Below are positions 10,623-27,863 of a stretch of DNA of 64,000 nt, piece by piece; positions within the stretch are counted from its first letter, which is position 1, and the number at the start of each line of letters is the position of its first letter. Source of the DNA: Neoroseomonas oryzicola (lineage in GTDB: Bacteria; Pseudomonadota; Alphaproteobacteria; Acetobacterales; Acetobacteraceae). Location: the NCBI RefSeq assembly GCF_012163135.1, contig NZ_JAAVUP010000004.1, positions 310,001-374,000 on the forward strand, in the 5' to 3' direction. Made by a program: the position numbers and the translations under genes. The notes under the pieces were generated by a model. It was not told the origin of the DNA and made no database searches. It saw nothing but the letters and a program-made list of their open reading frames with translations.

Positions 10623-10626
10623 CCGT

Positions 10627-11582: not shown

Positions 11583-11759
11583 TTAATGCGGGCCGGCCGC
11601 AGCCATCAGGCGCAACGCCACTCGCACCGGACCAGGAATAGCGCGCTCTCCTAGCGCCCATCGCCGCACCGTACGTGCGTCGACCTCAAGCGCTGCGGCT
11701 GCCTCGACCTGCGTCATGCCGAGATCCGCGATCGCCTTGCGGAACTCATCCGCGGACAA
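11583..11759 (-). CDS. Small HTH regulator, coupled to upstream gene
   Basis: This 58-residue helix-turn-helix protein contains GMTQVEAAAALEVDARTVRR followed by WALGERAIPGPVRVALRLM, an XRE-like arrangement. The TTG at 11759 overlaps the end of the preceding 76-aa gene, so the pair looks translationally coupled. The upstream palindrome at 11987-12005 is the natural candidate for its binding site. A second, truncated copy of the gene lies at 10254-10343. Confidence 0.7.
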   Translation of the reverse strand: MSADEFRKAIADLGMTQVEAAAALEVDARTVRRWALGERAIPGPVRVALRLMAAAGPH

Positions 11760-11976
11760 CGATGCCGTCCTCGTGCAGCGTCATGCCGTGCTCGGCGAAC
11801 ACAGGGCGCAGCGTCTCGTAGGTGTCTTCGATGCCGAAGGTGTTCGAGATGGTTCCGTCCGCCCGGAACAGAGCCAGGCGTTCCGGCCGGTCGACGCGCC
11901 GCGAGACGTAGCCCACGGCGTCGGCCGGCAAGTCGGGACGGGTCATCGGAGCGGGGTTGTAGGTGCGCTTGGCCAT
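11746..11976 (-). CDS. 76-aa protein paired with HTH gene, function unknown
   Basis: The protein starts MAKRTYNPAPMTRPDLPADA and ends GMTLHEDGIVVRG. It contains LALFRADGTISNTFGIEDTY and no motif I can name. Start ATG 11976 is favoured over ATG 12012 because a perfect palindrome lies between them and is better explained as an operator in the leader. It overlaps the HTH gene by 14 bp. The two-gene layout with an operator resembles a toxin-antitoxin or autoregulated immunity module, but sequence alone does not establish that. Confidence 0.55.
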   Translation of the reverse strand: MAKRTYNPAPMTRPDLPADAVGYVSRRVDRPERLALFRADGTISNTFGIEDTYETLRPVFAEHGMTLHEDGIVVRG

Positions 11977-11986
11977 AGGAGCCACT

Positions 11987-12005
11987 ATAGGGCCAATGGC
12001 CCTAT
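11987..12005. promoter_or_regulatory. Palindromic operator candidate
   Basis: ATAGGGCC-AAT-GGCCCTAT is a perfect inverted repeat with 8-bp arms and a 3-bp spacer. It sits 11 bp upstream of the 76-aa/HTH gene pair and just after the SIR2 gene stop. No T-run follows on either strand, so an operator is more likely than a terminator. Confidence 0.6.
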
Positions 12006-12037
12006 TCATCAAGACGAAAAATCATCCAACCCTATCG

Positions 12038-15000
12038 CTATCGACGAGAGAGAGCGGATAACCGCGAGTAGCGCGGATCGAGCCTCACCGCACTGTTCTG
12101 GGCCGCAATGTGATCGAGGACGGTGTCTAGGCCCAACGGGACGCGAGCATCTGGGCTCGTCCCAATAGTCAGATCGAGGAGATCCACCGCCGCCATCGCC
12201 TCATCTGCGCCAAGTATGACGTTAGGCTCGACCGCCCGCGTGGTAAGGTTGAAAATTCCCCAGTCACTCATCGACCAGGCTTCGAACGGGACAAGAGCAT
12301 GCCGCACCAGGAGGACCACTTTCGCAAATCTGCGGCCACACACCGCGGGGAGTGATGCGAAAGCTTCTGAAACCGCGGGAGTAACGACGGCCTTTTCTCG
12401 CGGCCAAACGAGACGAACAAACGGCTCTACCGCGCGATCAAAGACTTCCTCCGGACTAAACGCCGTGCCCCCTGACCGGAGCCCAGTGACATCCTTGACG
12501 AAGCTCTCAGCCGCGCCTGCTGCATAGGCGCGCAAGTCGTCCGGAACCGTTCGCAGCATCTGCTCGACTTCAGGCAGCAGACTTTCAACGACCCGGTCCT
12601 TCCAGAAGTCCCCGAGAACTGCGATGCACACGCGCGCGACCAATGATCGGCGCGCCTCCATTTCCAATCCACCCAGGGCTGCGCGGCGCGTCATGGCTAG
12701 GGCGAGGCGCGCCATGACGTTCTGCGCGATAGGAGAGTGGGCAAGTGCGTGCCAGAGAGAATCGCTTTCAGCCCCCGATTCCAATCGGGAGATCAGCGTG
12801 AGTTCTGTCCAATCCTCGTCAGCGCTCATTAGGTAAGGCAGATCGGCGACGCACCTGTAGCGAGCGATCGTTCCAGGCCTTCCCTGTGTCTCCGCTACGA
12901 GATCCAGGATGGCCCGAAGGCCCGGATCGACTTCGAACGGCCTTGTGCGCGTTCCGTCCTGCTGCGTCGCTATGGTCGGGCACGCGAGCAGAAAGGCGCC
13001 AGTCAGCCGGCCGATCGGCGCGTTGAGCGAGTCATGCGCAATTCGCTTCGCCTCCGCCCCAGCCTCGTCCTCATAGTCGGTTGCATCAGAGGAATGTCCA
13101 CTTCCCGCAACAGCATGAGGCCAAACGCGCCGGATTGCAGTGGTGAGCCCTGCATCTCCTCGGAGACGGCGTGCCCAATTCTCTAGCCACGTGCAGAGCC
13201 CCGAAGCAGCCTCGCGCAATGTCTCATCTGGCAAACGAGATATTGCATCGAGCAGCGCTCTAGCATCCGAATAGTGGTCGGTCTGGTCGTCGCTGTCCGC
13301 CGGGTCACGCTGCGCGGGCAGGTGACGCCGGCCGACTGCCTCCCACGCATGGCCCAAATAACGCACTCTAGATGCTTCGGAGATCAGCGCCCGCACCAGA
13401 CGGGTGGCGTTGTCCCGCACGTCAAGCCAGTCCCACACGGCTCGTTCGGGACCTTCCCATCGTCCTGTTCCGTGACGAAGCCGCTCATCCACGGCGCCAG
13501 GAAGTTCCTCATCGTCTACGGCGTCTAGGGTACTGTCGCGGTTTGGCGGCACCCAGCCTGAGGAAAAGCTCGTTCGAAAGCCGGCGTCGACAGATGTCGA
13601 CATGAACTCTGGAAACGCCAGATGCTCCCGCTGCAGCCATGCGGCTGCCTTTGGTGGCAAAGATGCGCCCGTAGCTTCAATACGGCTAAGCTCGCGAATG
13701 GCCGCGCCGATCTTCAAGCGGCGGCGCTCTGATGTCGAAAGTCCTCGGCGGCGTAAACGCGCGCGAGGGGGGCCAAGAATCAACACTCCGCAGATCGAAG
13801 TCTGATCGGCGCGGGACAACTCGCCAAATCGCAGGGCTCGCAACGCTGCGATCTCGGGAAACCGGCTCAGATCCCACGTCTGGTCGGGCGTGCGACTTCG
13901 GAGGAATCTGCCGACGTGATCTGGATCAACGAGTCGCGGCTCAACAGCAGCCGCGGCAAACATGCGCATGCGTACAGGATCGTCTCGCGTCTCCCATCGA
14001 CTCAGAACAGGGACCGCGGCCGCAGGATCCAAATCTACAAGCCGCTCAACAACGCGCATGAGAAGATGCACCGCGGGCGCTATACCCTTGTGATAGCGGT
14101 CCGCCGAGTCGCTATCCTCATTACTTGATCGGAGCTGCACCCTATCCAAGCCGCCTAGCCAAATGAAGCCGCGGTCCACAGTCCAACCAACTTCTTGGCC
14201 CAGGTGGAGCGCGCGGGACACTTCGGCATCCAGCGCGTCGCACAAGCTGAGGAGGAACGGAATCTCTGTGACATCTCGCAAGCTGAGGGAGCGATCTAAG
14301 AGCGCCTCTCCGCTCGTCACCCACCTGGACAGCAAATCGTCAACTGACTTGGGATTCCCGGGAAGCCTTTTCCCGCGCCATAGCTCGTCATCACGCCACC
14401 CAATCCGCAATCGCGGCGCAACCCAACGCGCAATATCAGCAACTAGTTCCGCAGACCTAACACCTTGCTTCACACGTTGTCCGAGGTGGTAGTCCTCGTG
14501 CTCTCGATGCGTGTTGCCTGCTCGTGCGGCCAGCGCGTCGGAGATTAGGCGCCAAGCTTCGAGCCACGGCTGCGGAACTGTCTTGTCCAGGTTCCACCGA
14601 AGTGCCTCAAAGATTGCAGTGCGCTCGGTTCGTCTCTCGACCGGCAATTGGGCGACCCATTGCAGCATGCTGGCGTCGGTGAACCGCCCGACAAGTGATG
14701 CATGACAAAGTTGGGTCACGTGGGCCTCTCGGTCAGCCCGAGCGCCGCCCTCCCGAACAATCTCGATCATGCCATCCAACCACGCAGGATCTGCAAGCAT
14801 TTCGCGCGATATCGCTGCAATGCGAATTTGCGCTGCGTCAGAACTGCGGCGGAAAAGGTGCCCAAAGAGGGACGCACTTGCTTCCGACGCGGCAGATCTC
14901 GGGAACTGCAGGATGCGGCGGATCCTCCGGTAGGGATCGGTCTGCTTTCCGAAAGGCGATATGGCGGCCCACGATTCAAGAACATTCGCCAGGGCGGCGT

Positions 15001-15955
15001 GGCCTTTGGCGACATCATACGGCAAGGGTGTGATGCCACGCTCTTTCCAGGTGGCCAAAACCACGGGATCGAAGGGGGGCTTCAATCCAACGAATGCAAA
15101 GCGTTCCTTGAGATCACCAAAGCGCTGGCCGTCTGCCGCTACTGCATTCAGCAGATATCGCATTGGCGGGTCGGCCAGACTGTAGCCTACGAGAACGATA
15201 TGAAAGATCCGCGCTGCATCGTAGATGAGATCAGGGATCGCGCGCCGCCTCATGTAGTGCTCGCCAAAATCGCGATCTGTGAGGACCAGGTCGGTATCGC
15301 GTATCCCCTGCAAATCTAAGGCGCCGTGAAGGTGCAGCACGCCTCCGAAATCCGGCCGGAGGGAGGGGCGTGGAATATCTTGAAGTGCGTATCGCTGGAG
15401 AGGTACGCGGAGTGCGCGAGCTGCACGTTCGAGCAGTAGGTCGAAATTGGTTGTTGCTATTGTGTGGGTAGCGCCGCGGTTCGAGAGTTTCACCAGAGAA
15501 GCGTGGATAGGTGCGTGTCGCCTCGCCTCCCTAAGAATGCTGCACACGGCTTGCCTAACCCGGCTTGCTTTCTCTTGGTCACGATCAACTCGGCGTTCCA
15601 GCATGCCCAGGGCGACATCGTACTCCTGATCGATAATTCGTCTGAGCATTGCAGTCTGCGCATCACTGAGCGGAGGAAGGGACGAGTTCGAGGCGGCCTC
15701 AGGGTTTGCCAGTGCCTCTAGGTGCAAGCCGATCGCGGAATCCAAGTCGCGAAACACTCGACGGACAAGACGATCAAAATTCGGCAGGCTCGACGGGGCG
15801 TGCATCGAAACCCCGGCGCCCGCGACGAAGAGAACTCGACCTTCGGCGTGGGCGAGTAGGAGCCTCTCTGGTAGATCGGGAAGCCCTGTACCGAGTGTGA
15901 CAGTGTTGTCCCCCGATGGGGATCTCGCGAGACTCGGGAGGGGAAGCTGCTTCAC
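12038..15955 (-). CDS. Large SIR2-domain protein, probable antiphage NADase
   Basis: This 1305-residue protein has an N-terminal SIR2 domain and a long, helix-rich C-terminal region. Motifs visible are FVAGAGVS (residues 44-50, NAD-binding Rossmann loop), ATTNFD with Asn170, VLHLHGALD with His210 as the candidate catalytic histidine, and VLVGYSLADPPMRYLL near residue 257. This set matches SIR2 domains of defence-associated sirtuins and Thoeris ThsA, where infection triggers NAD+ depletion. The size and single-gene layout most resemble DSR-type systems. The C-terminal 1000 residues show no named motif and could be the phage sensor. The GTG at 15955 lacks a clear ribosome binding site, so the start is moderately certain. 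It is followed 61 bp later by the 76-aa/HTH pair, possibly its regulator. Confidence 0.82.
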   Translation of the reverse strand: MKQLPLPSLARSPSGDNTVTLGTGLPDLPERLLLAHAEGRVLFVAGAGVSMHAPSSLPNFDRLVRRVFRDLDSAIGLHLEALANPEAASNSSLPPLSDAQTAMLRRIIDQEYDVALGMLERRVDRDQEKASRVRQAVCSILREARRHAPIHASLVKLSNRGATHTIATTNFDLLLERAARALRVPLQRYALQDIPRPSLRPDFGGVLHLHGALDLQGIRDTDLVLTDRDFGEHYMRRRAIPDLIYDAARIFHIVLVGYSLADPPMRYLLNAVAADGQRFGDLKERFAFVGLKPPFDPVVLATWKERGITPLPYDVAKGHAALANVLESWAAISPFGKQTDPYRRIRRILQFPRSAASEASASLFGHLFRRSSDAAQIRIAAISREMLADPAWLDGMIEIVREGGARADREAHVTQLCHASLVGRFTDASMLQWVAQLPVERRTERTAIFEALRWNLDKTVPQPWLEAWRLISDALAARAGNTHREHEDYHLGQRVKQGVRSAELVADIARWVAPRLRIGWRDDELWRGKRLPGNPKSVDDLLSRWVTSGEALLDRSLSLRDVTEIPFLLSLCDALDAEVSRALHLGQEVGWTVDRGFIWLGGLDRVQLRSSNEDSDSADRYHKGIAPAVHLLMRVVERLVDLDPAAAVPVLSRWETRDDPVRMRMFAAAAVEPRLVDPDHVGRFLRSRTPDQTWDLSRFPEIAALRALRFGELSRADQTSICGVLILGPPRARLRRRGLSTSERRRLKIGAAIRELSRIEATGASLPPKAAAWLQREHLAFPEFMSTSVDAGFRTSFSSGWVPPNRDSTLDAVDDEELPGAVDERLRHGTGRWEGPERAVWDWLDVRDNATRLVRALISEASRVRYLGHAWEAVGRRHLPAQRDPADSDDQTDHYSDARALLDAISRLPDETLREAASGLCTWLENWARRLRGDAGLTTAIRRVWPHAVAGSGHSSDATDYEDEAGAEAKRIAHDSLNAPIGRLTGAFLLACPTIATQQDGTRTRPFEVDPGLRAILDLVAETQGRPGTIARYRCVADLPYLMSADEDWTELTLISRLESGAESDSLWHALAHSPIAQNVMARLALAMTRRAALGGLEMEARRSLVARVCIAVLGDFWKDRVVESLLPEVEQMLRTVPDDLRAYAAGAAESFVKDVTGLRSGGTAFSPEEVFDRAVEPFVRLVWPREKAVVTPAVSEAFASLPAVCGRRFAKVVLLVRHALVPFEAWSMSDWGIFNLTTRAVEPNVILGADEAMAAVDLLDLTIGTSPDARVPLGLDTVLDHIAAQNSAVRLDPRYSRLSALSRR

Positions 15956-16281: not shown

Positions 16282-17175
16282 TCAGAAGGTAGTGCGGTGT
16301 CCGCCGCGGGGGCGCTCAGGCAGCGGCGTGGTTGCCATCACGGATGCCACCGCGAGACCCTCAGGCCGCGGCCCACGCCAATGCTCGTCGACGCCGCCGG
16401 CCTTCCTGATGCTGGAAACTAGCTTTTCCTCCGCCTGCCGGGTTGAGCCGATTGGTTCGAACCTGGCACCGTCACGCGCCAACGTGCGGAGGTCTCGGTC
16501 GTCGGGCGGATATGCTCCGGTGAGCGCCCGGGTTGCCCGCAGCGTCACATCAAGGGCGCCGAGCAGCGGTGAAATCTGCACACCGCCGACGATGAGGATC
16601 TGCTGGTGGATGACAGCAGCCCGCTTCTTACCGAGATGCCAGATGGCCTCAGATACCGCCATGTTTGCTTCCGCGAGGTTCGCCTCGGCATCTGCAATCA
16701 GCGCATCACCGTGCGCCGCGGCGTCCAAGTCCCGTCCGAGATTCAGTTCCGCCTCGGATAGAGTTGCGGCTGCGGCCGTCGCAGCAGCGTCAGCCGCGCG
16801 ACCGGCGTCGGTCGGCTTTCCGCCATGCTTAACAAGCGCCTCGGCATGGAGCAGTGCTGCGTTGTTGGCGGCCTCCGTAGCAGCTTCACGCAGCGCATTC
16901 AGGCGGTCGCGGGTTTCCCTGAACTCGGCCACGCGGTCCTTCACCCGCTCGAGGGCCGCTTTCATGGCGGAGCGGTGGATGCCTGCCTCCCTCAGATTAC
17001 GAACCTCCTCCGCCCACAGATGGCGCAGCGGTGCGAGTGCTGCCGCGTGCATCCGCTCAACGGGGTCCGTATCTCCGCCGCGCGCGAACTCCTGCACCAG
17101 GGCGAGAAGGGCCGGAGGAAAATCCGGATCAGTGACGTCGCCGGATGGCGGTTTAGCCGAGCTGTGTTCAGACAT
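16282..17175 (-). CDS. Ala-rich helical protein, function unknown
   Basis: This 297-residue protein has a long alanine-rich, probably coiled-coil middle. It runs from KAALERVKDRVAEFRETRDR through DAAATAAAATLSEAELNLG to LAEANMAVSEAIWHLGKK. A short moderately hydrophobic stretch (HQQILIVGGVQISPLLGALD) follows. There is no catalytic motif I recognise. The ATG start has AAGGAG about 10 nt upstream. It is 26 bp downstream of the 226-aa gene and likely in the same transcript as the replication genes further upstream. It could be a structural or regulatory protein of the element. Confidence 0.6.
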   Translation of the reverse strand: MSEHSSAKPPSGDVTDPDFPPALLALVQEFARGGDTDPVERMHAAALAPLRHLWAEEVRNLREAGIHRSAMKAALERVKDRVAEFRETRDRLNALREAATEAANNAALLHAEALVKHGGKPTDAGRAADAAATAAAATLSEAELNLGRDLDAAAHGDALIADAEANLAEANMAVSEAIWHLGKKRAAVIHQQILIVGGVQISPLLGALDVTLRATRALTGAYPPDDRDLRTLARDGARFEPIGSTRQAEEKLVSSIRKAGGVDEHWRGPRPEGLAVASVMATTPLPERPRGGHRTTF

Positions 17176-17201
17176 TGTGAGATGTCTCCTTCGGTTGGGA
17201 A

Positions 17202-17861
17202 TCAGAGGTCGTCGTCGACGGGAACGGGGGTCGGCGCCGATCGGCGGAGCAGGGCAGGCCGATCGATCTCGCTGCGCTCGCCGCGATAGTGAGGATCGAG
17301 CGCATACCCGAGCTTCTTCGCCAGATAGGCCAGACTGCGGCTTGCTTCGATCGCGTCCTCAGAAGGGAGGCGAGGCCACGCATCGGCGACGCAGCGCATG
17401 GCGCTGCCGAGCGACTCCATGGCTGCCAGGCTCGGCGAGGCGACGCCCAGGAAGTTCGGGGGGAGTACATCGGACTCGGCCTGCAGCAACGCAGTCGTCA
17501 CCTGCTCGAACATCCCTGCTGAGTCCTGCGACGGTGGCTCATTGCGTGCGGGGTCCGGCGCAAGGGCAAACTGAGTCAGCACGAAGCCGATCGCCTGCTT
17601 CGCTTCATCGCGCTCGGATCTCTCGAGGTAACGCCACTCTTCGGCCGCCCGATGTAGGGCATGCCCGACTGCGGCGGTTGCGCCTATGTCACGAACGGGC
17701 TCTCCGTGAGCGCCAAATGGAAGCGTCGCCCGCGAGGCACGCTCGATATCCGCGGCGAGATCGAGAAAGTGACGGCGCCTCATCGCTTCTCGGCGAGCGC
17801 GTGCTAGCCGCTCGAACTCATCGCGGTCCGCGAAGATGCTGCGAAGTGGGCTGCTCATCAT
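17202..17861 (-). CDS. Hypothetical island protein
   Basis: The 219-residue protein starts with tandem Met codons (MMSSPLRSIFADRDEFERLA), chosen for an AAAAGGG ribosome binding site just upstream. It is helical, with RARREAMRRRHFLDLAADIE near the start and SLGSAMRCVADAWPRLPSED toward the end. It closes with PTPVPVDDDL. I recognise no family. It sits between the possible origin region and the 297-aa gene, on the same strand as the replication proteins. Confidence 0.6.
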   Translation of the reverse strand: MMSSPLRSIFADRDEFERLARARREAMRRRHFLDLAADIERASRATLPFGAHGEPVRDIGATAAVGHALHRAAEEWRYLERSERDEAKQAIGFVLTQFALAPDPARNEPPSQDSAGMFEQVTTALLQAESDVLPPNFLGVASPSLAAMESLGSAMRCVADAWPRLPSEDAIEASRSLAYLAKKLGYALDPHYRGERSEIDRPALLRRSAPTPVPVDDDL

Positions 17862-18218
17862 GGTGATCCCTTTTCGGCGCAATGGCGGTGTGACGTGCGC
17901 GGCATGGTCCGTTGTCTCCTTCTCAGAGTGAGGTGCGAGGGCTTGGTTTGACGTTGGGTCGAGTGGGACGGAGAACGCGGCTGCATGTCACGGCGCATCT
18001 CTGCCAAGCCCGAGAACTTCCGGACGCCGCCTCTCCGGGCGCCCGGAAGTTCTCCGGGGGTATGGGGGAGACTCCTCCGGGCGAATTCCGCCGACCTCCG
18101 CGCGAGATTCCAGGCACTTAGACGCAAACCTCCGCGACTTCCGGCGAAGTTCCGTGTCAATGATTTCAATGACTTAGAGGAGGACTTCCGGAACCTCCAT
18201 GCCCGCCCCTCGGGTCGA
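17862..18218. other. Repeat-rich gap next to replication genes, possible origin
   Basis: The 8-mer ACTTCCGG occurs four times: 18016-18023, 18043-18050 (inverted), 18137-18144 and 18184-18191. Two copies form a perfect 12-bp inverted repeat, GAGAACTTCCGG (18012-18023) and CCGGAAGTTCTC (18043-18054), around a 19-nt loop. A weaker inverted pair, ACTTC/GAAGT, is at 18137-18150. The stretch lies directly downstream of the helicase and primase genes. Iterons plus a hairpin fit a replication origin; a terminator is the alternative, but no T-run follows the hairpin. Confidence 0.5.
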
Positions 18219-19361
18219 TCAGAAGGCATCGTCGGGTCTCCGAACGACGCGGAGCCCGCGCTTCTTCGTCGACGGGTCGACGAGGTCTGAGGTCAGCACG
18301 CCGTCCCGAAGCCACTTGGCGACGAGTTCCACGGTGGCTCTTTCCGGGATACGGAATTGATCGTGCACCCAGGCCGGGAAGTACCGACCATCCCTTCGAG
18401 TCTGCGGGGAGTGAGACCATGCCGATCCCCGGCGCCATGCGCGCTCGATCTCATCGAACAGAGTATCCAGTGTCTCGGCACTGAGCCCGGCCGCGGCAAC
18501 ATTGTCGTCGCGGATTAGCGCTCCATCGCGCCAGACGAGACGGATGTCGGCATTCCGGCCCGCATAGTTCGCCTTTTTGCGGGACAGGATGCGTGCATTG
18601 GGATCTGCAGCACTACCGCCCTCATGAACAAGGTAGAGGCGTGACCTAACGGTGTTATTCCACGCGGTGCTTCCACCCGTACCTTCCCCCGACGCGATGC
18701 CCGATTGCGAAGGGTGCGCGAGAAGCACAACGCTGCAGTTGAATGCTCGGGCGATGCGGCCCAGGCCGGCCTGTATGAACCATCGAACTTTGGGCCGCTC
18801 ATTCTCGTTATCGGGATAGAGATCGGCGGCGGTGTCGAGCACGAGCACGTCTGGCCGCCAGCTGTCGCAGGTTGCCATCACCAGTCCGTGGAATTCGGTC
18901 AGCGTTCCTGTGCCGTTTCTGTCGAACCGCACCATCGCGTTGTCCTCGCCAAAGCGAGACACGAGACGCAGGCTGCCCAGATCGAGCATGTCGCAACCGT
19001 ACGCTCGATTGATCGCCTCCTGCCGCCTGTGAAGTTCGTCGGTGTCGTCCTCGCAGAAGATGCCAAGCACTCGCCCCTTGGTGACAGGCACCTCGCACCA
19101 CGGCTTCCCGAGCGCGACAGAAGTGAGGAGTTGCTGAGCGAGAAGGGTCTTGCCGACCCCGCCGTCGCCATAGACGGCTGTCACGACCCCACGGGGAAAC
19201 CAGTCTGGGACTATCCATTGCCGCGACGGGGCGGGCGACGTCCAAGTTCGTGGATCAATGGCACCGAGCAGCCCCGGCTCAGCCGAGGGCTCGTCGAGAT
19301 CCGGGCAGCCGAATTGCTTTGCGAGATGGAAGAGCGTACCTACGCCACTGCGCGCCGTCAC
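18219..19361 (-). CDS. RepA-like AAA ATPase (AAA_25 family helicase)
   Basis: This 380-residue RecA-like ATPase has Walker A (VYGDGGVGKTLLAQQLL, near residue 65), Walker B (DVLVLDTAADLYP) and a RecA-type sensor strand (CSVVLLAHPSQSG). It matches AAA_25/RepA proteins, hexameric replicative helicases of plasmids and mobile elements. The C-terminal part (WVHDQFRIPERATVELVAKW) resembles a winged-helix tail. The GTG start overlaps the primase stop by 4 bp (GTGA), so the two are translationally coupled. Together with the primase it should drive autonomous replication of the excised element. Confidence 0.85.
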   Translation of the reverse strand: MTARSGVGTLFHLAKQFGCPDLDEPSAEPGLLGAIDPRTWTSPAPSRQWIVPDWFPRGVVTAVYGDGGVGKTLLAQQLLTSVALGKPWCEVPVTKGRVLGIFCEDDTDELHRRQEAINRAYGCDMLDLGSLRLVSRFGEDNAMVRFDRNGTGTLTEFHGLVMATCDSWRPDVLVLDTAADLYPDNENERPKVRWFIQAGLGRIARAFNCSVVLLAHPSQSGIASGEGTGGSTAWNNTVRSRLYLVHEGGSAADPNARILSRKKANYAGRNADIRLVWRDGALIRDDNVAAAGLSAETLDTLFDEIERAWRRGSAWSHSPQTRRDGRYFPAWVHDQFRIPERATVELVAKWLRDGVLTSDLVDPSTKKRGLRVVRRPDDAF

Positions 19362-20488
19362 TGCTTGACCTCATCACGACGAAGGGTCGAGAGGAGATGG
19401 CGACAATCACTTTCACCCTTGTATGCAGCCGGAACTCGCGCTCCGTCGTGGCGCATGTCGCCCCGAGACCAGCGAATGAAGAGATCCTCGATCTCCTCGC
19501 CTGAGGTTGCGGCCCAGGCCTTCAGCGCGCCACCTACTCGCAGCCAGATATCCCGAGCGTCGGGCGGGATGTAGGCCAAGGCCGCTTCAATACGACGCCT
19601 TGAGGGCAGGGGCAGATCGCGCCGTGTGTCGATCCACCGTGTCCAGTCGTCCTCGTCGCCTTCGACGGTCAGGCCCGATGACCCGCGGCGCTTCACGGCC
19701 CATCCGAGAGCCTTGCATCGGTTCTCAAACCACGTCTTCAGGGCCTGGACCTGAGCCACGGTGATCGGCGGAAGATCCGCCGCCTTGACTTCGAGCGGAT
19801 CGGCGCCGGGCCACTCGTACGGTTTCTTCGTGTCGGGGTGGATGGCGTAGGCGACGAACTGCTCGCCTTCACCGAGGCCCTCGATCTGCGCCTTGCGGCC
19901 TTGCGCGTCGACGAACTCGGCCGAGGCGATCTTCTTGATCGGCGCTTCGGTGCGGAACAGCAGGAGGACTTTCGGAGCCAGGCCGATGCGCTGCGGCGGG
20001 TTACCGGGCAGGTTCCACATGCACCAGTCGAGCGCCTCTCCGACCAGCTCGGGGTCGAGGATGTCGATGTCGATGGCGAAGAGGTTGCGTCCTAGGTTGA
20101 TGCCGACACCGGCGCCCGCCAGGCGCTTGTCGTTGAGCCACCGTCTGACCCTGGCGAGATCCGGCTTCACCGCGGACCAAGAGTCGCCGTTCTTGTGCGA
20201 CATCCACCCCGGCGGGCGCTTCGTGCCGGCGACAATCGGGATGACGGCGTAGCCATTGCGGACAAGGGTCTCGCCGAAGCGAGACATGTACGACTGACCT
20301 GCTGACGATGACGGTGTCCCCGGCCTGCTTGTGGACAGATCGAGGAACGCTGAGGCCGCTCCGGTATCGGCGGTGTGCCGGACACGCGCCCTTACAGCGT
20401 GCTCGACGCTGCGGGGGTCCGGCGCCGCCCCTGGCGCGGACGACAACGGAAAATCATTGAAATGGGAGTCGGTGTCGGATATTTTCAC
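19358..20488 (-). CDS. Bifunctional DNA primase/polymerase (Prim-Pol, AEP)
   Basis: This 376-residue protein has an N-terminal primase-polymerase domain. It has the entry motif RNGYAVIPIVAGTKRPPGW, the acidic metal-binding pair in GRNLFAIDIDILDPELVGEA, and LAPKVLLLFRTEAPI. The C-terminal region contains ALAYIPPDARDIWLRVGGAL, a module often found after Prim-Pol domains in phage and satellite primases (PriCT-like). It starts at GTG 20488 with a weak ribosome binding site. The gene is coupled to the RepA-like ATPase and follows the AlpA-type regulator by 75 bp, as in the replication block of phage-inducible islands. Confidence 0.87.
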   Translation of the reverse strand: MKISDTDSHFNDFPLSSAPGAAPDPRSVEHAVRARVRHTADTGAASAFLDLSTSRPGTPSSSAGQSYMSRFGETLVRNGYAVIPIVAGTKRPPGWMSHKNGDSWSAVKPDLARVRRWLNDKRLAGAGVGINLGRNLFAIDIDILDPELVGEALDWCMWNLPGNPPQRIGLAPKVLLLFRTEAPIKKIASAEFVDAQGRKAQIEGLGEGEQFVAYAIHPDTKKPYEWPGADPLEVKAADLPPITVAQVQALKTWFENRCKALGWAVKRRGSSGLTVEGDEDDWTRWIDTRRDLPLPSRRRIEAALAYIPPDARDIWLRVGGALKAWAATSGEEIEDLFIRWSRGDMRHDGARVPAAYKGESDCRHLLSTLRRDEVKQ

Positions 20489-20563: not shown

Positions 20564-20821
20564 CTACTTTCCTACGCTCAGGAGTCGATCGATGTATGCG
20601 TCGACGGACGCCATATCGATCAGCGATCGGCGGCCCACTTTCACCAGCCGGATCTCGCCCTTTCTGATCAGATCGTAGGTGGTCGTTCGCCCCCAGCCTC
20701 CCCGCGCGCTGGCGTTCGGGATCGGCGCAAGCCTGGCTCCCTGCGGCGGTGGCTCATGGCGTCGAGGAGGGCGCGCGCGCTTCACACCGGAACCGCGGGA
20801 ACTGTCTTGATCGGCAGGCAT
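20564..20821 (-). CDS. AlpA/excisionase-type HTH protein
   Basis: The protein is 85 residues with a MerR-like/HTH_17 core: GWGRTTTYDLIRKGEIRLVK followed by VGRRSLIDMASVDAYIDRLL. The basic Pro-rich N-terminus precedes the fold. The ATG start has AAAGGG 7 nt upstream. Proteins of this kind act as excisionases or as transcriptional activators such as AlpA of P4-like and PICI elements. Its position ahead of the primase operon suggests that it switches on replication or excision. Which of the two roles applies cannot be told from sequence. Confidence 0.8.
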   Translation of the reverse strand: MPADQDSSRGSGVKRARPPRRHEPPPQGARLAPIPNASARGGWGRTTTYDLIRKGEIRLVKVGRRSLIDMASVDAYIDRLLSVGK

Positions 20822-21058
20822 CGTGAACCCTTTCCGAATCGGATCGGTGGAAGCGAGCCCTGCATTTCACGATGTCACGGGTTCACGGGTTTCTGGCTCG
20901 CTACGGCCTTCATCTCACGACTACGAACAAGAGGTCAAGAAAAAATCGCATTCGCCCAATACGTGGGGCCTTTCCGACAAGTAAGACTCAACAAAATGTT
21001 GACTCGGCAGCATGGGCTCCGGCGCGGAATTCGCACCGCCAACGATCGCGTCGAGCCG

Positions 21059-24000
21059 TCACCCGCGGACGAGCTGCCGCACCGTGGCGGCGTTGGTCTT
21101 CAGGACGTTCATGACGAGCCGCTCACCAGGGGCGCCGACCATCGCGTCCGCGATCTGGTCTGGCGAAATGGCCAGCACGTTCCGCAGTTGCACGATCGGC
21201 GCACCGCCGCCCTGAACACCGCCTCCGTTGAGGATGTTCCTGGGGTCGCTCTTGGACAGCACCTCTTCGCCGCGCTGCAGGATCGCCGGAACCTCATCAG
21301 GGCGCAGTCCGGCGATGCCGCCTGAGTGCAGCCGCGGGGCGTTGGCGAACCAAGAGACGGAGGCTTGTCGCATCACCGACGCGCCGCCTTCGCCGATGAC
21401 GCCGCCGGCGTGCTTCTGGATCACCGGGACGCCGCCGCCACCGACGCTCCCTGAAACTGCCTTCAGGATGGTCTGAGCGACGGTGAGGGCCTGCGTCTGT
21501 ATGATCGCCTGGCCGATGGCCCGCAGGAAGTCTGCCGCGAACTGCAGCGACGCCCGGCCTGCCTCCCGGAATGCATCGCTGAACTTCGCCACCCCTGCGA
21601 AGGCGTTGCCGATGGACTCGGCGATCGAGTTGAAGGCCGTCGATGACGACTGGACGAAGCCCTGCTCAATCGAGGTCCGCAGTTGCGCCATCTGTGGGTT
21701 CACGTACTCGATCTGCTGCCGCCACAGCTCGACCGAGGCGGCGTTCTGCGACGCCTGGGCTTGTGTGATGGCGCCGTTCTCCTGCGCCGCCAGTGACGCC
21801 GCTGCGTAGGCATCCACCGCTTGCCGCACGGTGTCGTTCGTCTGCCGCCAGAAATCCTGGATGCGGGCCTGCGCGTCGCCCTGGGTGATGACACCCTGTT
21901 GCACGAGGGCATTCTGCGTCTGCGCGAACTGCTGACGTTCCTGCAGGAGGCGCTGCACTTCCTGCTGCTGCGTCGAGAGCACTTGCCCGGCACCTTGCCG
22001 CGAGCCGAGCGCCCCGGCCTGCCGCTCGGCCTGTGCGACCAGGGAGTCGATGGCAGCGCGTCGGACGGCATCGCCGCCCTGCTGTGTGTCGCGGAACCGC
22101 CGCGCCTCTTCGGCGAGGCGCTGCAGGGCCGGACGGGCTGCGTCGGCGGCCTCCTGGATCTTCTGGATCGCCTCGGCCGGCGTCAGTGCTCCCGCCGCCA
22201 CGTCCTCCTGCGCGCTGCGGATGGTCTCGTCGCGCGTGCGGATGGTGGCGGTGATGTCGTTCTGGATCGCCTGGAAATCGCGGCGGACTGCCGCAGCAGC
22301 AGCCGCACCGCCGCGCGTCAATTCCTCCTGGATCTTCTGCCTGATCGCGATCTCCGCCAGATCGGCGATCTCGGCGAGATCGACATCCGACGCCTCGGGG
22401 TTCTGCTCGCGGAATCGCCGGGTCGCCAGCTCACGCGCAGCGGCAATGCGCCGCGCCCTGGGTAGGGTCCGCTCGTCCCGTTCGAACTCGAGAACCTGCT
22501 CCTGGCGTGCCCGTTCTGCCGACTGCTGGCCGGGCGTCATTCCACCAACGGCGGCCCGGCCAGTGGGGGTGCCCGGCGTCCGCGCTGCTTCGCCCTGCGG
22601 AATGAGGCCAAGCGACCGGGCGATCCGCGCAGCGACATCGAGTGCCGCGATCGCTGGCGCGAGCGCCGTCGTGATGCCTCGGCCAAGCGCATGGAATGCG
22701 AGCCGTGCAGCCTGTGCGCTCTCCCCGATGCGCGCGAGCGCCGTCGCCACGAGTTGCAGCGGCGCCGAGTTCCCGATGTCGTCCAGGAAGTCGCGCCACG
22801 CATTCCGCAGCTCGCGCGTTGCCCGCTGGAACGGCGTGAGGGCCTGCTGCTCCGCATCGCGGAACCTTTGGCCGAGAATGCCGAGGATCTGCTGTTGCCG
22901 CTCGAACGTGTCGGAGGTCTGGTTCGCCTGGGCAATGGCATCCCGCTCCGCTTGCGTGAAGCGGACGCCCGCCTCCTGCAGCGCCATGAAGCCCGCCTGT
23001 CCGTCGCGCAGCGCGCGGGACACCAGCCGCGTCGCATCGGCGACGTCGATGCCAAGTACGGTCGCGAGGCGTGCCGACGCCGTTGCCGCCGCTTCGATGT
23101 TGGCCGGCGCCAGTCCGTCGCGGAGGAAGGAAAGGGCGGCCTTGCGCGCATCCTCGAAGGACGGGCCAAGACGCTCGACCTGGCGCGCGATCTCGGTGAG
23201 CTGCTGCGCGGAGACACCGAAGGCCGCTCCACCGGACCCGCCGCCGGCTAGGAGACTGAGGTTGCCGGCAAAGCCTCGGTTCGACGAGGCCGTCTCGTAC
23301 AGGCGGCCGATCGCCGCGGTGAGGGTGACGAAGCCCGCGGCGAGACCGCCGATCATGGGAGACCAGCGCGCCAGGGATGCCCATGCGCCCGGACCGAACA
23401 CCTGGACCATCTGCCCGCCCTGCTGAGCGAGCGCCTGCGTTGCGCTGGTGCCGGATGCGATCTGCGTGAAAAGGTCGTTCAACTGGAAGCTGAGATTCTG
23501 CACCTGGTAGGGTTCGAGGCCGAGGACGCCCCGTTGCCCGGCATTCGCCTGTCCCGCCTCGCGTGTCGCCCTTGCGGCCTCCCTGGCATTGCGGGCATAG
23601 CCGAGCATCGCGGTCGTTAGGACGGTGGCCGCCTGGCCCGCCTGCGTCGCCGACTGGACGATGGTGCGCTGTGCATCCGCGAGGTTCCGGGTGTCGATCC
23701 CGGCCGACTGCAGCGCGGTGCGCGACGCGGTGAGGGCTTCCGCATTTCGTCGCTGCGCAGCCTGTGCGGACTGGTAGGCACGCTCGAGGCGCTTGAACTC
23801 CGCCTCCTGCTTCCGCGTGATATCCGCGGAGCCGGCGAGGGAGTACGAGAACTCGCGAAGCGCGCGGCCGGCATCCCGCACGTTGTCCTCGAGGCGTGCA
23901 GCATCCGCGGACAGTCGGTTGAACCGATCCAGGGAACCCTGCTGTTGCGAAAGGGCACGACCGGCCTGCTGCACCTCCTTCAGAGATGCGGCCAATTCCC

Positions 24001-24148
24001 CGAACGATGTCTCGCCACGCTTGGCCGCCGCCACCTGGTCGCCGAGGTTCTCGGTGACCTGCTGAATGGCGCCGGCAACGTCGCGTAGTGGCTTCGAGCT
24101 AAGATCCTTGGCGCGGATGAGAAGTTCGACGTCGCGGCGCTCGACCAT
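21059..24148 (-). CDS. Phage tail length tape-measure protein
   Basis: This 1029-residue protein resembles prophage tail length tape-measure proteins (TMP_2 type). The N-terminus (VELLIRAKDLSSKPLRDVAG) leads into long coiled coil. The family core has YQVQNLSFQLNDLFTQIASG, then ALAQQGGQMVQVFGPGAWAS, then a hydrophobic segment, then FEDARKAALSFLRDGL and LQEAGVRFTQAERDAI. Glu/Gln/Ala-rich helices and a Gly-rich C-terminal region (GGVIGEGGASVMRQASVSWF) follow. The reading frame is intact. In tailed phages this protein sets tail length at about 1.5 angstrom per residue, here roughly 150 nm. It is the last gene of a four-gene overlapping cassette and has no other tail genes around it. Confidence 0.9.
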   Translation of the reverse strand: MVERRDVELLIRAKDLSSKPLRDVAGAIQQVTENLGDQVAAAKRGETSFGELAASLKEVQQAGRALSQQQGSLDRFNRLSADAARLEDNVRDAGRALREFSYSLAGSADITRKQEAEFKRLERAYQSAQAAQRRNAEALTASRTALQSAGIDTRNLADAQRTIVQSATQAGQAATVLTTAMLGYARNAREAARATREAGQANAGQRGVLGLEPYQVQNLSFQLNDLFTQIASGTSATQALAQQGGQMVQVFGPGAWASLARWSPMIGGLAAGFVTLTAAIGRLYETASSNRGFAGNLSLLAGGGSGGAAFGVSAQQLTEIARQVERLGPSFEDARKAALSFLRDGLAPANIEAAATASARLATVLGIDVADATRLVSRALRDGQAGFMALQEAGVRFTQAERDAIAQANQTSDTFERQQQILGILGQRFRDAEQQALTPFQRATRELRNAWRDFLDDIGNSAPLQLVATALARIGESAQAARLAFHALGRGITTALAPAIAALDVAARIARSLGLIPQGEAARTPGTPTGRAAVGGMTPGQQSAERARQEQVLEFERDERTLPRARRIAAARELATRRFREQNPEASDVDLAEIADLAEIAIRQKIQEELTRGGAAAAAAVRRDFQAIQNDITATIRTRDETIRSAQEDVAAGALTPAEAIQKIQEAADAARPALQRLAEEARRFRDTQQGGDAVRRAAIDSLVAQAERQAGALGSRQGAGQVLSTQQQEVQRLLQERQQFAQTQNALVQQGVITQGDAQARIQDFWRQTNDTVRQAVDAYAAASLAAQENGAITQAQASQNAASVELWRQQIEYVNPQMAQLRTSIEQGFVQSSSTAFNSIAESIGNAFAGVAKFSDAFREAGRASLQFAADFLRAIGQAIIQTQALTVAQTILKAVSGSVGGGGVPVIQKHAGGVIGEGGASVMRQASVSWFANAPRLHSGGIAGLRPDEVPAILQRGEEVLSKSDPRNILNGGGVQGGGAPIVQLRNVLAISPDQIADAMVGAPGERLVMNVLKTNAATVRQLVRG

Positions 24149-24160
24149 AATCCGGTGTCC

Positions 24161-24568
24161 TCAGTGCAACGAGGGAAGGTGCGGCCCGATCAGCGGGCCG
24201 AGGATCTCGGCGAAGGGACGACGGTCGCCTGATTGGCCGAAGGTGAGGCGGTCGATCGCGCCGAGGAGGTGAAGCACGACACCGAATGGCAGACGCCGCG
24301 CTGCCTCGACCTGGTCCGGCTCATCGGACGCGAGGGCGATGACATGGGCGATGGCGCGTGGCGCAATCTCGAGCAGCGCCAGAACCGACGCGACGGGCTC
24401 AGCTCGGATCGATCGCAGCGGCACTGCGATGTCAGCCGCGTACTCCCCGACCAGTGTCGCGATATCCTCCGCCGAAAGAGCGCGGACGGAGAGGGCGACA
24501 CCCCGCGACAGGACGACGTCCTCACACTCGGCGGCAATGGAGGCCAGGGCGGCGAGGCGGCCGGTCAT
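24161..24568 (-). CDS. Probable pre-tape-measure/tail assembly protein
   Basis: The 135-residue protein starts MTGRLAALASIAAECEDVVL. It is helical, with ALSAEDIATLVGEYAADIAV and AIAHVIALASDEPDQVEAAR. Its position immediately before the tape-measure gene (12 bp) is where tail assembly chaperones or pre-tape-measure proteins are encoded in siphophages, which is the basis of the call. Its start overlaps the stop of the previous gene by 4 bp (ATGA), implying coupled translation. I see no programmed frameshift signal of the lambda G/GT type. Confidence 0.65.
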   Translation of the reverse strand: MTGRLAALASIAAECEDVVLSRGVALSVRALSAEDIATLVGEYAADIAVPLRSIRAEPVASVLALLEIAPRAIAHVIALASDEPDQVEAARRLPFGVVLHLLGAIDRLTFGQSGDRRPFAEILGPLIGPHLPSLH

Positions 24569-24774
24569 GCCCGGCACCCCTCGGCCTTCAGGTGCCGAAG
24601 ATCGGCAAGGCACTCATCGACCTCGGGCCATTCCAGTTCGACCTGCCCGCGGCGATTGACGAGGGCGTAGCCGGTGGGGCGGGTGTCGGTGGTGTGCAGC
24701 GTCATGCCGAGGCGCTGAGCGATCTGCCGTGCCTGGCGCTCGGCGTCGCCGCGGCTGAGGAGGTGATCAGGCAT
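24565..24774 (-). CDS. Small tail-cassette protein
   Basis: The protein is 69 residues: MPDHLLSRGDAERQARQIAQ, then TTDTRPTGYALVNRRGQVEL and a C-terminal helix with ECLADLRHLKAEGC. The GYALVNRRG segment looks like a small beta unit. I recognise no family. The ATG at 24774 overlaps the upstream gene by 8 bp and its stop overlaps the downstream gene, so it belongs to the tape-measure operon. Confidence 0.6.
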   Translation of the reverse strand: MPDHLLSRGDAERQARQIAQRLGMTLHTTDTRPTGYALVNRRGQVELEWPEVDECLADLRHLKAEGCRA

Positions 24775-24976
24775 GGGCAGCCTCCTGCGGCAGCAGGCCG
24801 CACGCCTCGAGGTTGGCGAGGATGGAGGCCGCGCGGCCACTCCCGGACTGCGGTGCTCTGCTCGCCGGTGCCGGGGGCTTGTCCTCGTCGGTGATCGCGA
24901 TGCCGATCGCTCGGGCGGCGGTCAGGAGGCGCGCCGCGCCCTCCCCGGAAGAATCGGTGCTGGTGGCTGCGGACAT
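24767..24976 (-). CDS. First gene of the tail cassette, unknown function
   Basis: The protein is 69 residues starting MSAATSTDSSGEGAARLLTA. The N-terminal half forms a helix (LLTAARAIGIAI); a Pro/Ser-rich linker and a helix (AASILANLEACGLLPQEAAH) follow. No family is recognised. The ATG at 24976 has GAGGAG close upstream (AGGAGATTTGTGGC). It overlaps the next gene by 8 bp, making four tightly packed genes that end with the tape measure. Confidence 0.6.
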   Translation of the reverse strand: MSAATSTDSSGEGAARLLTAARAIGIAITDEDKPPAPASRAPQSGSGRAASILANLEACGLLPQEAAHA

Positions 24977-25094
24977 GCCACAAATCTCCTCGCTTGCGCG
25001 AGGCGAGGCTGTGTCAGAATTCAATCTGGAGTCAAAGAGAAATCAAAATAACAATGGCATTTGGCCAACAGAAGAGGTTGAGAAATTACGATTT

Positions 25095-25143
25095 AATTGT
25101 TCGTGTATGTTCGTTATTGGTTTCAATTGTTCGTAGAAGTTCG
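25095..25143. repeat. Two 19-bp direct repeats upstream of the tail cassette
   Basis: AATTGTTCGTGTATGTTCG (25095-25113) and AATTGTTCGTAGAAGTTCG (25125-25143) are identical at 15 of 19 positions and are spaced 30 bp start to start, close to three helical turns. They lie 120-170 bp before the first tail gene in an AT-rich leader. A regulator binding site is likely. Confidence 0.5.
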
Positions 25144-25181
25144 GGCGGCGGAGGGTTGTTATTCCCCTCCGCTGCCAGCGA

Positions 25182-25412
25182 TCAGGCGGCGATTCGCGCC
25201 GCTCGGTCCTGCCAACCCTCGAGCAGAAGTTTCTCCGACCCGGGCGGGATCTTCTCACCCGCCTCGATGGCGCAACGAAGAAGGCCGAAAAGCAAATCGC
25301 GCCCCCTTTCCAAGAGGCGGTCGCCCTCCTCGGACGGTTCGCAGTCCAGCGCCGTGTTGATGGCATCAAGAATTTCACAATAGGCGGCGAGATCGGTATG
25401 GTAATGCGGCAT
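25182..25412 (-). CDS. Small island protein, unknown function
   Basis: The 76-residue protein starts MPHYHTDLAAYCEILDAINT. This ATG is preceded by AAGGAG at ideal spacing, which outranks in-frame upstream starts at 25496, 25451 and 25442. It is acidic and helical (EEGDRLLERGRDLLFGLLRC), ending EGWQDRAARIAA. No family is recognised. It lies between the integrase and the tail cassette. A GC-rich hairpin (GCGGAGGG/CCCTCCGC) follows its stop at 25147-25172 and may end its transcript. Confidence 0.6.
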   Translation of the reverse strand: MPHYHTDLAAYCEILDAINTALDCEPSEEGDRLLERGRDLLFGLLRCAIEAGEKIPPGSEKLLLEGWQDRAARIAA

Positions 25413-25557: not shown

Positions 25558-26877
25558 CTACTGGCTGGTCAAATCAAAGGCGGCCCGCCGCAGCAAGTCT
25601 TCCGACGCATCGACGATATACGCCGCGTAGTGGCTCTCGATCATCTTGGCGCTTGTGTCATGGGCCTTCGCCACGAGCTGGACCGGGAGTCCTGCCCTGA
25701 GACCTCGCACGATGGAACTGTGCCGCAAGCAATAGGCCACAAGGTCGCCGGCCAAGCCCGCGGTCCTTACTGCTTTTGCCCAGGGGCGTGTTATCTCGGA
25801 AGAGTCGGACCATGCGACACGGTCTTTGCGCTCCCAACGAATGACTGGGCCGGGGACCTGTTTGTGGCGCCACCGCATTAGCAATGGCTCGTGCGCGGCC
25901 CGGCCTGCGGCAATCTGGCGCAGGCGGACTAACGTATCCGGCGGTAGCGGGGCTGGGGACGGCGCAGCCTTCCGAGTCCCTCGGCCCTTGGCGCTGGGCG
26001 GTATCAGGATGCGGCCGGCGTCGGGCTGAAGGTCTCCGACCGTTAGTCGTGCCGCCTGGCTGAAGCGTGCTCCGGTTACGGCGAGGACATAGATCAAAGC
26101 ACCGAAATCAGGGTCATGAGCGTCCGCCGCGGCGACAAGCTTTCGCACGTCAGCGTCCGCGACCACCTGCATCGGCCGCGCGCGTTGAGCGGCAGCCGGC
26201 GGGCGGGTGCCCTCAAATATTGCAGCATGGACGCCAGTTGGTGCCTTCGCCCTTCGGGCTGCGGCCGTTAGCGCTGCGCGAAGATCGTTGAGGAGCCGAG
26301 CGAGGGTTGAGGGCGCCAAGGGTACATCCGACCGCTTCTCTCGCCCTCCGCGCTTCACGCCGCGTTGCCAGCGGGCAAAATCATCTTCGGTTAGCCCGAG
26401 GAGCGATACGTCGGCCAGAGGTGACGTCAGCACATGTCGAGCAAGGCGCCATTCCGCGTCCTTGCCGGCAGCGGCAGCGCGGCGTTTCCGGCTGGCGACG
26501 TAAGATCCTATCGCCTCCTTCACGGTGAGGTCGGCGCCGCTTGCCTTGGCTCGATCTTCTGCCGATTGCTGGACAGACCAATCCCGCGCGGCTGCTGAAG
26601 CCTGATGGAAGGTCATCGAGATCGCGCCATCAGCGACGGAATCCGGGTGATCGTCTGCCGTGCCGAGGGCCTTCTCGAGATATCGCGTCCGATCGCCTTG
26701 CTTTGTGATTGCGCGACGCGCGACCCACGTACCGTTGCGGCCTTTGCCCGATGGAGACCGATAGCCGAGGTGCGTTTGAGGGGCGATCAGCATCCAGTGC
26801 GGATTGCGCTGCGCCGGCAATCGCGCCCGCTGAGTTCGGTTCTCGAGCCTGCCAGCGGCCGTCGTCTTTCGCGCCAT
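25558..26877 (-). CDS. Tyrosine site-specific integrase of the island
   Basis: This 439-residue phage-type recombinase integrates the element into tRNA-Glu. The catalytic domain shows Arg271 (VTGARFSQAARL), Arg385 in AYCLRHSSIVRGL, His406 in AKAHDTSAKMIE and nucleophile Tyr417 in SHYAAY. The usual first histidine of the HxLRH box is replaced by Tyr, a variation also seen in some phage integrases. A core-binding helical domain spans roughly residues 115-210. The gene ends 139 bp inside attR and is transcribed inward. Its promoter region holds one of the two arm-type repeats, so the integrase or excisionase may repress it. Confidence 0.93.
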   Translation of the reverse strand: MARKTTAAGRLENRTQRARLPAQRNPHWMLIAPQTHLGYRSPSGKGRNGTWVARRAITKQGDRTRYLEKALGTADDHPDSVADGAISMTFHQASAAARDWSVQQSAEDRAKASGADLTVKEAIGSYVASRKRRAAAAGKDAEWRLARHVLTSPLADVSLLGLTEDDFARWQRGVKRGGREKRSDVPLAPSTLARLLNDLRAALTAAARRAKAPTGVHAAIFEGTRPPAAAQRARPMQVVADADVRKLVAAADAHDPDFGALIYVLAVTGARFSQAARLTVGDLQPDAGRILIPPSAKGRGTRKAAPSPAPLPPDTLVRLRQIAAGRAAHEPLLMRWRHKQVPGPVIRWERKDRVAWSDSSEITRPWAKAVRTAGLAGDLVAYCLRHSSIVRGLRAGLPVQLVAKAHDTSAKMIESHYAAYIVDASEDLLRRAAFDLTSQ

Positions 26878-26913: not shown

Positions 26914-27016
26914 CCCATGGCGGACACCGGCGGATCAATGCAGACATTTAGTTCATTATATCAAATGCATAATCCGTTCGTGTTCGTCCGCCGTTGTGCG
27001 ATCTTGGCCACTTAGG

Positions 27017-27064
27017 CGCCCTCTCACGGCGGCAACAGGGGTTCGAATCCCCTATGGGACGCCA
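27017..27064 (+). repeat. attR: 48-bp copy of the tRNA-Glu 3' end
   Basis: Exact repeat of 2263-2310 without the 5' half of the tRNA. It cannot fold into a complete tRNA and marks the right boundary of the island. Confidence 0.93.
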
Positions 27065-27141: not shown

Positions 27142-27424
27142 ATGGTCCAAATGGTCCTGAGCATTGCCCGCCCAACAAGGCACCCGAAATCCGGCGTCTA
27201 CCGAGCGCGCAAGGTCGTCCCTGAGGACCTTCGGGCGGTCATCGGTAAGCGGGAACTCATCGCCTCCCTACGGACGAAGGACCCTGCCGAGGCGAAGGCC
27301 CGCCACGCGGCCGCTATGGCTACTCTGGAAGCCCGCCTCACCGCAGCACGTGCCGAGGTCGCGGGGACCTTCACGCGCCTGACTGCGCGCCAGATCGCGG
27401 AGATTGCTGGCGAGGTCTACCGCG
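27142..27424 (+). pseudogene. Truncated integrase of an older element
   Basis: The first ~94 codons encode an integrase-type N-terminus (MVQMVLSIARPTRHPKSGVY, then KVVPEDLRAVIGKRELIASL and DPAEAKARHAAAMATLEARL). This is the DUF6538-like segment of phage integrases. After EIAGEVYR the similarity ends. The frame continues to 27645 as low-complexity sequence, and the catalytic domain is absent. It lies 77 bp right of attR, where an integrase of a second element in the same tRNA would be expected. Confidence 0.75.
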
Positions 27425-27863
27425 CTCCGGCATTGGGTGTGAACCCATCCGACTCCGCCGGGCCTTTTTCTGTCGATTTATTTTTCGCACGCTGCCGACC
27501 AACGATGACTCGTCCTGTCACGCCAGGATGCACGCGAGGACCGGAAGCGCGGTGTGCTGAGGCTTCCAGCGCGGCGCGGATCACCGGAGGCGGCGAGGCC
27601 CCCACCCCCGGGGCAATCGGCAATGTCGTTCCAGAAGTCGGCTAAAGGTTGTTGTTGTTAGACCACCCCCGGGGGTCTTCCTTCGGGCGCGCCGCAGATT
27701 CCGGTCTGCTCTGGGTCTCCCCGCAAGTCCCCGCCCCCCGGGGGGAGGGGGTGCTCGGCGCCGGATCGCCGAGGCCAGGGCCGTCTTCGGGTCCCTCTGT
27801 GGGTCCTTGCCGGAACGGCGGTCGGCGCTTGAGGGGCGCGCTCGGCCTAGTCATGCTGCGACC

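Follow-up and report, generated by a model that had tools for sequence, protein, structure and literature searches.

Why should an integrated genetic element preserve a full-length phage tape measure protein (TMP) when little else of a virion can be recognised in it? The question is raised by a 64,000-nt stretch of the Neoroseomonas oryzicola genome (positions 310,001 to 374,000 of contig NZ_JAAVUP010000004.1; hereafter, the window), in which an intact TMP gene lies within a 24.8-kb island. The island is delimited by perfect 48-bp direct repeats of the 3' end of tRNA-Glu(CTC), namely attL (2263-2310, plus strand, within the tRNA gene at 2235-2310) and attR (27017-27064, plus strand), and the integrase gene adjoins the right copy. 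The gene content and the comparisons with related islands and phages lead us to regard the element, on balance, as a tRNA-integrated, phage-satellite-like island, whose particle would depend on an incoming tailed phage.

The defined borders with an integrase and attachment sites, as well as the incomplete set of virion genes, are those of an integrative phage satellite. The PHROG scan of 19 island proteins and of cassette gene A, with the 3' fragment of the DnaE2-type gene and the shortest open reading frame (ORF) calls lying outside it, returned no portal, terminase, capsid or other tail match, in agreement with the initial annotation, and the only structural genes recognised were a Pre_tape_measure chaperone-type gene and the TMP gene. 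The element had also been taken for a mobile island, and two empty sites (L125/L126) were found among the five loci looked at from a search of 35 genomes of the genus. In Neoroseomonas marina (contig G021:C42; flank identity 94.9 and 90.7%) and on contig G006:C29 (81.6 and 71.4%), the island was absent, and the left flank, a single tRNA-Glu and the right flank were contiguous. In the three further loci (L127-L129), the right flank alone was matched, beside a tRNA-Thr. Just beyond attR, a fragment resembling an integrase N-terminus (27142-27645) is probably an older remnant, since the N. marina empty site retains the first 409 bp counted from attR.

The cassette consists of four genes on the minus strand. 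The TMP of 1029 residues is encoded by a single open frame (21059-24148; PF06791 (TMP_2), 4.5e-16; phrog_2335, 3.4e-69). The three small overlapping genes that were said to precede it are indeed present, and one of them is of the tail assembly chaperone type (Pre_tape_measure, 135 residues from the ATG, 24161-24568; PF23789, 6.7e-20; phrog_5260, 2.5e-16); among its best matches in phages, many carry the annotation of a tail assembly chaperone, a pre-tape measure or a tail length tape measure protein. Gene B (24565-24774) and gene A (24767-24976) each encode 69 residues with no assigned function, and B shares 8 nt with A and 4 nt with the chaperone gene. No PHROG match was obtained for A, which is 77% identical in N. 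marina, and nothing similar to B was found among 50,697 phage records at E<=1. The AlphaFold model of the chaperone, built from a four-row alignment, was unusable (mean predicted local distance difference test score of 45.9), and a PDB sequence search with the same alignment gave two chance-level matches only. Promoter, terminator and Rfam scans returned nothing useful for the cassette. A separate ORF (25182-25412, minus strand) lies upstream of the cassette, where three copies of ACGAACA occur in 10-bp phase (25098-25134); another copy (26981-26987) lies beside attR. The heptamer occurs eight times in the window against 2.5 expected, a count reached by one of 100 shuffles, and the copies are not at the corresponding place in N. 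marina. The GAAC decamers upstream of the cassette were considered as LexA boxes or primase iterons and rejected, as the GAAC-N6-GAAC pattern is weak (reached by 7 of 100 shuffles) and absent from the N. marina island.

The sole relative retrieved by a contig scan with peptide patterns, a method that detects close relatives only, was an island of N. marina JC162 (L004, contig G021:C34), bordered by a 40-bp repeat of tRNA-Arg(CCT) at 275845 and 298911. The two islands share the SRAP and DnaE2 genes, a helix-turn-helix (HTH) gene pair, the N-terminus of the Prim-Pol and the whole cassette, and an AlpA-like gene occupies the same position in both. The N. marina island differs in its integrase (574 residues), its helicase-fused primase and its cargo (dCTP deaminase-type, TIR and Mrr-type nuclease genes). 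Its TMP has 1022 residues and is 84% identical to that of the window, and the PHROG scan of 15 of its proteins indicated no structural gene except the chaperone. Between the two islands, TMP residues 1-719 are 97% identical, with nonsynonymous divergence (dN) of 0.014-0.029 and synonymous divergence (dS) of 0.18-0.23, and the dN/dS of the chaperone is 0.17. The TMP and the chaperone are under purifying selection, as had been proposed against decay. The values for genes A (0.81) and B (1.42) derive from few changes in genes too short to judge, and an internal stretch of B is absent in N. marina, which speaks against a role of B under strong constraint. Towards the TMP C-terminus, identity falls to 53% at residues 720-930 and 33% at residues 981-1029, with dS >1.2, and residues 931-980 are still 92% identical. 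These C-terminal segments look as though they were replaced through recombination between sister islands.

A third tRNA-bounded island with a chaperone-TMP pair was found in another alphaproteobacterial family (G735:C51), between perfect 49-bp repeats of tRNA-Arg(ACG) at 114242 and 139660. It carries its own integrase and a Prim-Pol-D5 primase, beside which a chaperone-like gene and a TMP gene are located, the TMP having 1431 residues (TMP_3, 1.4e-22; phrog_2335, 2.8e-147). A small protein, which we read as AlpA-like, matched neither Pfam nor PHROG, and no structural PHROG was found among 17 further proteins (one in part). In a 15-row TMP tree, eight rows of which have skewed composition, the window and N. 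marina sequences group with those of Carli, R22L, G345 and L060, and the G735 sequence groups with RHph_X2_30 and L101. Two origins are forced by the starred branches, and a single origin was recovered in 0% of 200 bootstrap trees; the chaperone-TMP pair was therefore captured at least twice. Recurrence of the cassette in N. marina and, independently, in G735 was likewise unaccompanied by recognisable head or other tail genes. None of the three islands showed a recognisable head, packaging or other tail gene, so the possibility that the window copy is a simple deletion derivative of a prophage, which the initial annotation had named as its own refutation, was not borne out. The island TMPs are shorter than those of the phages they group with (1029 and 1022 versus 1350-1418 residues; 1431 versus 1661 and 1694). 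The window TMP matches the phage proteins at both ends, and its match to Carli and R22L skips approximately 300 phage residues in the N-terminal third, the exact position being uncertain within repetitive coil.

The islands and the phages differed in the chaperone. A gap of 198-253 nt separates the chaperone stop from the TMP start in 15 phage loci, made up of 11 phage records together with L060, L101, G345 and G621, and a conserved segment of approximately 80 residues, the T extension, is encoded in an overlapping frame; because the records of S-ESS1 and Enc34 place the TMP start later, it was taken in these two from the open frame adjoining the chaperone. The joined frameshift-type product is annotated in four of the 11 records (Smarc5, Enc34, Seifer and RcRios). 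Profiles built from 14 of these loci recovered the remaining one in all cases (E 4e-16 to 1e-34). The extension was also detected in L021 (E 3e-24) and, by eye, in G686 (L065), where a 219-nt gap holds an open extension frame that scored E = 0.54, which makes 17 of 17 related phage loci, 16 by profile and one by eye. Among the 1855 six-frame ORFs from the three islands, the best match to the T profile had an E of 6. The distance from the chaperone stop to the TMP start is 12 nt in the window, 12 nt in N. marina and minus 1 nt in G735, so that an extension could not fit in front of the TMP. In phage lambda, the TMP is bound by G and the tail tube by T, and the ratio of G to GT is of importance (PMC5009743, PMC4493119); moreover, when gpT production is lost in TP901-1, capsids without tails are reported (PMC4493119). 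Since TP901-1 needs gpT and no T was recognised in the islands, it is to be expected that the island could not assemble tails alone. As an observation on L021 (G278:C58, 4600-5730), its tail module with the chaperone and T extension has transposase-like genes nearby, and its TMP frame is cut to <300 residues, mostly the C-terminal part, before the next tail gene.

The distribution of the cassette was assessed at several taxonomic levels. The TMP search of 146 related genomes gave five matches, two of them full length (the window genome and N. marina). PF23789 was present in four of 397 genomes of the family, namely in the two islands and at two loci of phage type, L021 and L022; L022 belongs to a 59.7-kb phage contig (G345:C396). 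This contig, from an Acetobacteraceae assembly, has a Casjensviridae-like gene set, including a Phage_cap_E protein (2.8e-51), and no integrase was seen by eye. Among 385 genomes of the class, PF23789 was matched in five: above the cut-off in the window genome and two phage operons (G621 and G686), and below it in G735 and G567. The G567 match (19.4 bits) was rejected by eye as a false positive, lying among flagellar and other host-type genes. The more widespread phrog_2335 was matched in 62 of the 385 genomes, and an informal reading by eye of 20 fetched regions, of which L171 and L180 are short contigs beyond judging, revealed no further lone chaperone-TMP pair beside a Prim-Pol. Two integrase-bearing loci, L166 (G552) and L165 (G794), appeared, on inspection by eye, to have a TMP of 650-750 residues and few other tail genes alongside a portal, a terminase and head genes, and might be capsid-forming satellites with a tmp gene in Alphaproteobacteria. 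In the IMG/VR scan, the TMP alignment and the G735 TMP each identified one phage contig (L060 and L101, respectively), and the single TMP sequence and the Prim-Pol alignment gave no match. The Prim-Pol itself was discarded as a satellite marker: it was matched in 39 of 299 family genomes, and 16 fetched regions (L068-L083) mostly resembled phage replication modules by eye.

The suggestion in the initial annotation, offered there as inference, that no satellite carrying the tape measure gene alone had been described was not supported. The phage-inducible chromosomal island-like elements (PLEs) of Vibrio cholerae (PLE1, PLE4 and PLE11) are reported to encode a chaperone and a TMP, to use helper tails and to form chimeric tails (PMC12987554). 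According to the same report, the PLE11 TMP differs in length by 95 residues from that of the helper ICP1, the tails are 10 nm shorter, the helper TMP is excluded, and tmp deletion lowers transduction by 96 to about 99.9%; a brief mention in its Extended Data Fig. 10 legend extends putative tmp genes to PLE-like elements and capsid-forming phage-inducible chromosomal islands (cf-PICIs). Satellite TMPs have therefore already been published (PLEs, Nature 2026), and the islands described here are not the first of their kind.

The reading that we find the most convincing, and somewhat probable as a whole, is that the island gives the TMP and the chaperone half that binds it, and that the helper gives T, tube and tip, so that chimeric tails would be formed. 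An infecting siphophage, probably of a Casjensviridae type sharing these genes, would serve as the helper. The island would make its own TMP, covered by the matching G-type chaperone, and because the island is without the T half, we propose that the tail tube is recruited by the GT chaperone of the helper, which would supply the tube and the tip as well. The island TMP would then displace that of the helper, and satellite particles would receive chimeric tails, probably of reduced length, at the helper's cost. With a helper TMP of 1350-1418 residues, tails would be expected to shorten by roughly 35-60 nm, on the basis of 0.10-0.15 nm per residue. In TP901-1, the TMP C-terminus has been proposed to contact the tail-tip initiator complex (PMC5099701), and the exchanged residues 720-930 and 981-1029 could adapt the TMP to different tail tips. 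A lytic helper, as in the PLE-ICP1 pair, would fit. More tentatively, we suggest a rule, possible but less likely than not, by which tail-hijacking satellites take the TMP with the tape-binding G half and shed the tube-recruiting T half, a change that would have arisen at least twice in Alphaproteobacteria. Under this rule, only helper tube, brought by the GT of the helper, could be assembled around the satellite TMP. If true, T loss would explain how a satellite TMP wins the helper tube, giving chimeric, shortened tails.

Several observations weigh against this reading. The search for a helper in the window's own genome found no further match to the TMP and none to the G345 capsid protein, nor any PF04860 portal; in the same genus, G014 has a distant match to that capsid protein (34% identical). 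Neither a packaging site nor a capsid-remodelling gene was recognised in the island. The G735 chaperone-like gene scored 23.5 bits for PF23789 against a cut-off of 27, without a PHROG match, and its product of approximately 185 residues is longer than most phage G proteins compared, so that a diverged T analogue could be contained in it. Extensions that have diverged can escape the T profile, as the score of G686 demonstrates, and the compared phages were chosen for their resemblance to the window genes and set against few islands. Phage TMPs are not always longer, that of G686 having 975 residues and that of L021 being much shortened.

A T-less chaperone is, moreover, equally suited to poison the helper, and the strongest competing explanation, which we consider rather unlikely, starts from this point. 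The TMP and the T-less chaperone would form a dominant-negative decoy: by sequestering the tail tips or tubes of the helper, they would halt its tail assembly, and the island would move on rare escapers or by another route. The chaperone lacks a recognised T in all three islands, the remaining cargo is defence-like, and satellites and prophages are known to target tail assembly (Tai, PMC11364771; Tab, PMC10884400), all of which suits interference. However, the PLE blocker Rta is reported to have only 80 residues, and PLEs carry the same gene pair, with tmp needed for efficient transduction (PMC12987554); a TMP of 1029 residues with both ends under selection would be costly for a decoy. We see still less reason to place DNA delivery above tail length, that is, to suppose that an own TMP allows particles to get past envelope factors or superinfection exclusion directed against the TMPs of helpers. 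The mosaic C-terminus agrees with this, as do reports that the C-terminal TMP sequence decides Tab sensitivity (PMC10884400) and that TMPs act in DNA entry (PMC5099701); the link to host factors or exclusion is hypothetical, and such a role would be compatible with chimeric tails and not opposed to them. Equally improbable is that the cassette is the remnant of a decayed Casjensviridae-like prophage, as the co-occurrence of Prim-Pol, chaperone and TMP in phage contig G345:C396 might suggest, given the recurrence of this reduced gene set in two lineages of independent origin, the conserved overlapping frames with low dN, the integrases with perfect repeats and the absence of any other recognised phage structural gene.

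The other island genes agree with the backbone proposed initially as far as the integrase, the AlpA-type HTH protein and the Prim-Pol are concerned; the supposed RepA-like helicase is an AAA_25 ATPase (18219-19361, minus strand; 2e-32). The tyrosine integrase (25558-26877, minus; PF00589, 4.3e-06, 27.0 bits with a cut-off of 27.1; phrog_1, 3.8e-23) and the AlpA-like protein (20564-20821, minus; HTH_17, 6.1e-06, 26.9 bits with a cut-off of 27; phrog_66 excisionase, 8.6e-05) are accompanied by a Prim-Pol with PriCT_2 (19358-20488, minus; 3.7e-09), which is 66% identical over 354 residues in N. marina. Two proteins of 297 and 226 residues with no assigned function (16282-17882, minus) matched neither Pfam nor PHROG. 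The cargo comprises a TPR protein and a SIR2/Dsr1-like defence protein of 1305 residues (12038-15955, minus; PF13289 (SIR2_2), 5.2e-18; PADLOC Dsr1, 1.5e-52). An HTH protein, which matched transcription-regulator PHROGs, and its 88-residue neighbour (11583-12012, minus) are 100% identical over 52 residues and 93% over 76 residues in N. marina. A SRAP protein (3416-4438, plus; PF02586, 2.6e-18; 92% identical residues in N. marina) and a polymerase that we read as DnaE2 (6405-9650, plus; DNA polymerase PHROG, 1.9e-162; 96% identical residues) are kept in both Neoroseomonas islands. Both families are linked to the SOS response. The genome contains another DnaE2-type gene (65%) outside the island. 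The DnaE2 3' end is duplicated 972 bp downstream (9443-9653 and 10415-10625, 76%), flanking a small ORF; together with a partial duplication (10267-10343 and 11602-11678, 91%), it marks a spot of cargo insertion, where N. marina (L004, 22865-23050) holds the TIR gene.

Compared with known systems, the island resembles PLEs, by gene content and published description, in having its own chaperone and TMP genes. The PLE recombinase is of the large serine type, whereas the window integrase is of the tyrosine type (PF00589, phrog_1). The tails of PLE virions are contractile, and PLE11 contributes a baseplate hub as well; in contrast, the window TMP is of the siphophage type and is accompanied by a Prim-Pol/AlpA core and a chaperone without T extension. 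An integrase, an AlpA-like regulator and a primase are the hallmarks of PICIs, and all three are present in the island, the integrase and the HTH protein scoring just under the Pfam cut-offs with PHROG support. The reported PICI size is about 10-15 kb (PMC11364771), smaller than the 24.8 kb of the island, in which the TMP is also an addition; defence-like cargo is shared with PICIs and P4-like satellites, which are described as defence hot spots (PMC11364771). Like the island, cf-PICIs are integrative satellites with a tmp gene, but they encode capsid and packaging genes (PMC10690885), none of which were recognised here. Casjensviridae siphophages (Enc34, Seifer, SAP012, RcRios, RHph_X2_30 and V16) have the same chaperone and TMP families in the same gene order, whereas their full records are 58-70 kb, the T extension lies beside the chaperone, and the TMPs on the tree (all but Enc34) are longer. 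The portal, terminase and capsid genes of a Casjensviridae prophage were not found in the island.

The literature search, with preprints and most subscription papers outside it, found no paper on a Roseomonas satellite and included no search aimed at T-less satellite chaperones. In the PLE report, these elements are called the first satellites known for chimeric tails, and selective TMP incorporation is called unknown (PMC12987554). The islands described here place the capture of a chaperone-TMP pair outside PLEs, at least twice and from siphophage-type sources. They also offer a testable clue to how a TMP may be selectively incorporated, as the tape-binding half of the chaperone is kept and the tube-recruiting half was not found.

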